A stretch of 64,000 nt of DNA from Cytospora piceicola (taxonomy: Eukaryota; Ascomycota; Sordariomycetes; Diaporthales; Cytosporaceae): contig JALQBC010000036.1 in the NCBI GenBank assembly GCA_023375675.1, positions 186,001 to 250,000 on the forward strand. Reading direction: 5' to 3'. Below are positions 55,901-56,441 of the stretch, piece by piece (the first letter of the stretch is position 1; every line of letters starts with the position of its first letter). The notes below the pieces were generated by a model. It ran no database searches. It saw only the letters and a list, made by a program, of their open reading frames with translations, and was not told the DNA's origin. A program made the position numbers and the translations under genes.

Positions 55901-56306
55901 GGTCAATGGTGCCTGGGTATCGCCCAAGATACCGAACTGCTTGGAGTATCAGAGTGCCTAGTTGAACTGATTTGCCAGTTGACCCCTGGCCCAGACCCAC
56001 TTGACCTTTAAGTCCACATCAAATGCATCCACCACATGTCTTACAGGGCTGAACAGTGGGGGAGTTCGTTCCATGAGCATCTGTCGAGGCCTTGACCTTG
56101 TAGCTTGCAGTGCCTGCCTGCCAGCCTGTTTGACCAGTTCGAACACACTGTGTCAGCCTTGGAATAAATACTGCATAGTACAGCGGCAGTATTGATGATA
56201 CCCACATCATAAGATCCACCTCGGCAGGTTTGACTCTTGCGTGAGTCTCGGGACTGCCAATATGAGTAGCCCTGACAGGCCGCAAAATATGAGAACAACA
56301 GCTACA

Positions 56307-56317
56307 TAGCTCAGGGG
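56307..56317 (+). promoter_or_regulatory. Internal A box of the tRNA gene
   Basis: TAGCTCAGGGG fits the A box consensus and lies wholly before the insertion, so TFIIIC could still bind. The A-to-B distance is 56 nt longer than in the uninterrupted gene. Confidence 0.75.
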
Positions 56318-56321
56318 AAGA

Positions 56322-56377
56322 GTGAGTCAACCCACAAAGATTCTATCAGTCAAAATTGACACTAACACCAAATCAAG
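56322..56377 (+). other. Spliceosomal-type intron-like insertion inside the initiator tRNA
   Basis: 56 nt with 5' GTGAGT, a branch-like CACTAACA whose branch A (56365) is 12 nt from the 3' AAG, and a length typical of introns in this window (50-92 nt). Exact removal restores a fully paired D stem. The usual tRNA intron site is between positions 37 and 38, which is uninterrupted here. Confidence 0.7.
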
Positions 56378-56405
56378 GCGCCGGGCTCATAACCCGGAGG
56401 TCGCT

Positions 56406-56416
56406 GGATCGAAACC
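56406..56416 (+). promoter_or_regulatory. Internal B box of the tRNA gene
   Basis: GGATCGAAACC matches the B box in its initiator form and is intact downstream of the insertion. Confidence 0.75.
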
Positions 56417-56435
56417 AGTTGTAGCTACTCCATCA

Positions 56436-56441
56436 TTTTTT
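56436..56441 (+). terminator. RNA polymerase III terminator (T6)
   Basis: Six T residues begin 9 bases after the mature 3' end of the initiator tRNA, a normal pol III stop. Confidence 0.8.

Follow-up and report, generated by a model that had tools for sequence, protein, structure and literature searches.

Initiator tRNA-Met genes of Cytospora piceicola are interrupted in the D arm by a predicted mRNA-type intron

The stretch of DNA analysed here, hereafter the window, comprises 64,000 nucleotides of Cytospora piceicola (assembly GCA_023375675.1, contig JALQBC010000036.1) and holds at 56300-56427 of its forward strand an initiator tRNA-Met gene, which measures 72 nt once its exons are joined and is split by a 56-nt insertion between tRNA positions 23 and 24 (Table 1). 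Eukaryotic initiator tRNA-Met is marked by a CAU anticodon, an A1:U72 pair, three G:C pairs next to the anticodon loop, and A54 together with A60. Each of these features is present in the joined exons, as an earlier note on this DNA had claimed for A1:T72, the G:C pairs and A54/A60, and the recomputed coordinates agree with its statement that removal of 56 nt leaves a 72-nt initiator tRNA with paired stems and one G:T. ARAGORN folds the joined exons into a tRNA-Met(CAT) with all four stems, the sole G:T pair lying at the outer end of the T stem. The same program called no tRNA in the unspliced forms of the four initiator copies that we found in the genome, and scans of the window with ARAGORN (bacterial settings) and Rfam (gathering scores) gave no match, which is the expected outcome since the gene is interrupted; annotation tools can thus miss genes of this kind.

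Shifting the boundary of the insertion by one base (G24) does not alter the product, and only one of the two possible registers gives GT..AG ends. The insertion starts with GTGAGT, carries CTAAC 11 nt before its end and closes with AAG, a description already given in the earlier note and re-read from the sequence without change. When the 56-nt insertion was shuffled (mononucleotide), the arrangement GTRNGT...CTRAY...AG was matched in 6 of 2,000,000 cases.

The stretches that we take, by consensus, to be the A box and the B box of the window gene are intact, and these boxes and the downstream T run, likewise claimed beforehand, are present in all four copies. A run of T5 or T6 is found 8-11 nt downstream and TATA-like words at -30 to -41 in 4/4 copies; both are ordinary features of tRNA genes, being common in 49 other tRNA genes called by ARAGORN (46 loci outside contig C65), where a run of at least four T within 40 nt downstream was seen in 47 and a TATA-like word in 29. 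No T run longer than 2 exists inside any of the four insertions, so that pol III should read through them, and we infer from these signals that the four initiator genes are transcribed by pol III.

Table 1. Features of the interrupted initiator tRNA-Met gene (window positions) and of the intron-bearing U6 gene of the same genome
Feature	Position	Strand	Remarks
Weak TATA-like AATAT	56259..56263	+	upstream; loose match
Exon 1	56300..56321	+	acceptor 5' strand, D stem 5' strand, D loop and first two bases of the D stem 3' strand; positions 1-23; ends with A23
A box TAGCTCAGGGG	56307..56317	+	uninterrupted, wholly in exon 1
56-nt mRNA-type intron (predicted)	56322..56377	+	between tRNA positions 23 and 24
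5' splice site GTGAGT (putative)	56322..56327	+	invariant in 4/4 copies
Branch-site motif CTAAC (putative)	56362..56366	+	invariant in 4/4 copies; TACTAAC in the C1 copy
3' splice site AAG (putative)	56375..56377	+	first AG after the branch site; invariant in 4/4 copies
Exon 2	56378..56427	+	rest of the D stem, anticodon arm, variable loop, T arm, acceptor 3' strand and A73; starts with G24
Anticodon CAT	56388..56390	+	from the sequence and from ARAGORN on the joined exons
B box with initiator-type T loop GGATCGAAACC	56406..56416	+	in exon 2
T6 run, presumed pol III terminator	56436..56441	+	from the sequence
U6 gene with two introns	C68:682185-682353	-	Rfam 55.9 bits; second intron right after the ACAGAGA region

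In the assembly that holds the window (43.6 Mb in 99 contigs of up to 2.3 Mb), four initiator loci were found on three contigs, at C1:1034449-1034593, C25:1676122-1676266, C32:242280-242440 (the window gene) and C32:347842-347985, and the insertion occupies the same position in all four. A 15-base anticodon-arm pattern matched these same loci, as did a pattern linking the anticodon loop to the initiator T loop, with 0 matches on the reversed control in either case, and the spliced 72-mer used as a DNA query (E up to 10) returned the four loci only, each in two pieces. An uninterrupted junction, sought with a 28-base pattern over the joined exons and up to 3 mismatches, had 0 matches in the assembly, and a 161-nt query for repeat or introner copies of the intron (E up to 10) matched the four tRNA loci only. 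The count of other initiator genes and of any lacking the insertion, proposed in the earlier note, therefore gives four loci, of which none is intact, and the initiator tRNA of this fungus appears from these searches to be encoded only by genes interrupted in the D arm. The intron tail and exon 2 of copy C32b form a borderline match to the Rfam tRNA model (30.3 bits, cut-off 29) in an alternative cloverleaf (L019 1514-1583, minus strand), which counts against the spliceosomal reading given below; the corresponding portions of the other three copies did not reach the cut-off.

The exons of the four copies, aligned in the same direction, show 0/72 differences in all six pairwise comparisons (exon 2 is identical at 50/50 positions across the four copies), while the insertions differ at 5, 9, 22, 10, 21 and 21 of 56 columns in the six pairs. 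The flanks align poorly, except for a short CAAC/CATC immediately upstream of the gene and YTCCA immediately downstream. When the window copy is compared with the C1 copy, the contrast between exons and intron has a Fisher p of 7e-10 and, within the insertion, GTGAGT, CTAAC and AAG are invariant in 14/14 columns vs 17/42 for the rest (hypergeometric p 4.6e-5), the four copies being related by descent so that both p values express a contrast and not four independent events. The 14 columns are those of the three splice signals named in the earlier note; a previous, wider choice of motifs taking ACACTAAC gave 15/17 invariant columns vs 16/39 (p 0.001, to be read in the same way). Since the exons are identical, selection appears to act on these copies themselves.

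Introns of the U2 type have a GT 5' splice site matching GTRAGT, a CTRAY branch site near the 3' end and, as their last bases, the first AG beyond that site; they leave as lariats while the exons are ligated. The four insertions present GTGAGT, then CTAAC with a tail of 11 nt, then an AAG whose AG is the first one after the branch site, in 4/4 copies, and the invariance of these signals amid a drifting intron fits selection for spliceosomal removal. Splicing of the tRNA by the spliceosome was one of two options put forward in the earlier note, and it is the one that the sequence supports best, given that all four loci are interrupted with identical exons and that no uninterrupted copy was found. 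The best explanation, and in our judgement a very probable one, is that the four loci are functional initiator tRNA-Met genes whose pol III pre-tRNA is spliced by the U2-type spliceosome. U1 would recognise GUGAGU at the 5' end of the intron, U2 would pair with CUAAC, cleavage would take place after the first AG downstream of CUAAC, and excision of the lariat with ligation of the exons would restore the D stem, to be followed by end trimming, CCA addition and modification of the tRNA. It is likely, by extension, that every cytosolic initiator tRNA is made by the spliceosome, so that all cytosolic initiation, and with it each translation start on a product of a nuclear gene, would require a pol III transcript to be spliced, and initiation could be limited directly by the capacity for splicing.

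Several points count against the spliceosomal route. A pol III transcript does not have the pol II cap, and fungal introns rarely end in AAG, which is a weak variant of the 3' splice site. In the fold of the alignment, the 5' splice site pairs with the 5' strand of the D stem (GCUCA with UGAGU), and the first bases of the intron can therefore replace the 3' strand of the D stem in the precursor; this modelled pairing may help the precursor to stay tRNA-like, and it may also compete with U1 at the 5' splice site. A motif scan of the window for mRNA introns, which likewise counts against the route, gave fewer matches (30) than its reversed controls (38). In favour of the route, the RAD16 gene of the window shows two introns that start with GTGAGT and GTAAGT; they were read by eye where the protein match breaks, and the longer of them is without a fixed 3' end. 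The 631-aa RAD16 piece encoded in the window shares 93% identity with the Cytospora schulzeri and C. chrysosperma proteins, the best two among the 120 matches listed, and this one protein puts the genome in or near Cytospora (Diaporthales, Sordariomycetes).

Removal of the insertion by the Sen complex and tRNA ligase, acting at a non-canonical position as in Cyanidioschyzon merolae, would be the main alternative, and one expects this fungus to have the endonuclease pathway, because ordinary introns at 37/38 coexist in this genome (in Ile, Ala, Tyr, Arg, Thr, Lys, Leu, Ser and Pro genes). The insertion lies at 23/24 and thus away from the canonical position of an endonuclease-type intron. We scored the four central pairs of a bulge-helix-bulge (BHB) under nine bulge geometries, for the four copies in both registers and for nine canonical controls from this genome: the initiator insertions had at most 2 of 4 pairs in every copy and register, and 8/9 canonical 37/38 introns reached 3-4 of 4, a moderate separation since one Arg control scored 2. 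The fold of the alignment contains no helix that joins the two intron ends, and the Sen route would leave the invariant GTGAGT, CTAAC and AAG unexplained. For want of a BHB, we rejected the insertion as an endonuclease-type intron. Non-canonical tRNA introns are described in excerpts of a review (PMC4090602) for C. merolae and nucleomorphs, with BHB motifs said to guide the splicing endonuclease in C. merolae, and a D-arm intron is named in part of PMC9602550; on the other side, yeast Sen54 is reported, in a source available in excerpt, to contact the D arm, which is interrupted here. Taken together, we consider the Sen route improbable.

An uninterrupted gene could also be missing from the assembly and supply most of the initiator tRNA, the four genes being real whether or not they are spliced. 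The assembly consists of 99 contigs and comes without a completeness figure, but its contigs reach 2.3 Mb, the four copies on three of them are all interrupted, and the identity of the exons argues that these four copies are themselves under selection, so that we hold such a gap to be highly improbable. The second option of the earlier note, that the intron killed this copy, is hard to square with the comparison of the loci. The four copies would in that case be pseudogenes with introns derived from reverse splicing, and the true initiator gene would lie elsewhere; neither relaxed exons nor an intact copy was seen, all four loci being interrupted, no other being found by three pattern and two DNA searches, and the exons being identical at 72/72 positions while the introns drift, with the A and B boxes and the T run preserved in each copy. 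According to the part of PMC4090602 available to us, insertions in the D or T arm of eukaryotic tRNAs mostly affect a single member of a large set of synonymous genes, which is then regarded as a pseudogene, a rule that the initiator genes break because every copy found carries the insertion. We give almost no credence to dead copies, which are very unlikely if the assembly is complete. Group I and II introns have a conserved catalytic core of hundreds of bases; a 56-nt intron is too short for either, and the window had no Rfam match at gathering scores. A U12-type intron, whose 5' splice site is ATATCCTT-like, was rejected because the 5' site of the insertion is not of that kind.

Among the searches for other tRNA genes, the Rfam tRNA search (63/1659 candidates scored, 58 matches) is not a census, because a Lys gene found by ARAGORN is not among its matches; ARAGORN as used seeks introns only in the anticodon loop. 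An Asp/Gly pattern had 7 matches vs 14 on the reversed control; of the 7, one looks like a degenerate nuclear Asp copy and one lies on C65, a 135-kb contig taken for the mitochondrial genome; ARAGORN found no tRNA at the remaining five. The elongator Met pattern had 3 matches vs 2 on the control, one on C65 and two without a tRNA according to ARAGORN, and a concatenated query of 11 tRNAs found one Pro gene. On contig C2 near 185656 there is a degenerate tRNA-Asp-like copy without a 37/38 intron, perhaps a copy of a spliced tRNA, with an intron-bearing tRNA-Asp a few hundred bases away on the other strand. Five tRNA-Asn genes are clustered with one Lys and one Val gene within 14 kb at C21:384810-398602. 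Outside this genome, the strict initiator signature had 0 matches among genome contigs of bacteria and archaea and among those of viruses, and a looser one had 3 and 1 matches in these two sets, with no fungal relative among them. In JAPUJT010000197.1 (labelled as a Planctomycetota MAG) there is the 3' half of an initiator-like tRNA with no 5' half visible in the preceding 130 nt, possibly owing to an intron that splits the anticodon stem; at that locus every Rfam family stayed below its cut-off.

The precedent invoked in the earlier note, an mRNA-type intron in a U6 gene, turned up in this very genome. Two U6 genes were found (47/2118 candidates scored), an uninterrupted copy on contig C63 and a copy on contig C68 with two mRNA-type introns, the conserved U6 core remaining once both are removed. 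The first intron of the C68 gene has 53 nt (GTAAGT..TACTAAT..AAG) and shares the AAG end with the initiator intron, and the second has 60 nt (GTAGGT..ACTGAC..CAG). The first also resembles the 5' half of a tRNA-Arg of this genome, A-box-like stretch included (0/300 shuffles score as high), and the second, more weakly, the 3' half of a tRNA-Ile with a B-box-like GAGTTCAAGTC (15/300 shuffles). The promoter boxes of the C68 gene may sit inside its introns. A 1990 paper reportedly, to judge by its title, describes a B-box match in the introns of Schizosaccharomyces U6 genes. By length, no insertion was seen in the SRP RNA (one match of 274 nt against a 293-position model, 27/287 candidates scored) or in the 47 matches listed for 5S RNA, 120 nt each (47/2275 candidates scored).

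In teaching, the introns of nuclear tRNAs and those of mRNAs are presented as separate systems, each with its own enzymes. Among the matches listed in the open-licence literature (titles and abstract openings), outside which most subscription papers lie, we found no report of a spliceosomal intron in a tRNA, and the initiator tRNA would, if the reading is true, be the first tRNA known to us to have left the endonuclease pathway for the spliceosome. The border between tRNA and mRNA splicing would then have been breached in an essential gene and in its full initiator gene set, and the spliceosome would accept a pol III substrate that is very short, lacks a cap and folds as a tRNA. The fungus would also allow one to test directly whether the amount of initiator tRNA can be set by splicing, and this tRNA and perhaps some of the RNA supply of the spliceosome itself would share a route, since one U6 gene also needs splicing.

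Compared with known systems, the initiator insertion differs from the ordinary eukaryotic 37/38 introns present in the same genome in position, in signals and in the enzyme expected to remove it. A known self-splicing ribozyme intron in an initiator tRNA-Met gene shares the kind of host gene, but 56 nt is too short by the size range generally given for such introns. The introns of C. merolae and nucleomorphs, as far as the excerpts of PMC4090602 and PMC9602550 describe them, lie like the present one outside 37/38, the D arm included, in nuclear-type tRNA genes; the initiator insertion differs from those of C. merolae in having no BHB and in its GT..AG ends and branch site. A further likeness is with U6 of Schizosaccharomyces pombe, a pol III transcript with a short intron and spliceosomal signals, which according to parts of PMC10484740 and PMC8917221 is removed by the spliceosome and is thought to derive from reverse splicing. 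Reverse splicing into U6 is easy to picture since U6 is a component of the spliceosome, which a tRNA is not; here, unlike in the U6 case, it is the initiator tRNA that hosts the intron, in every copy found.
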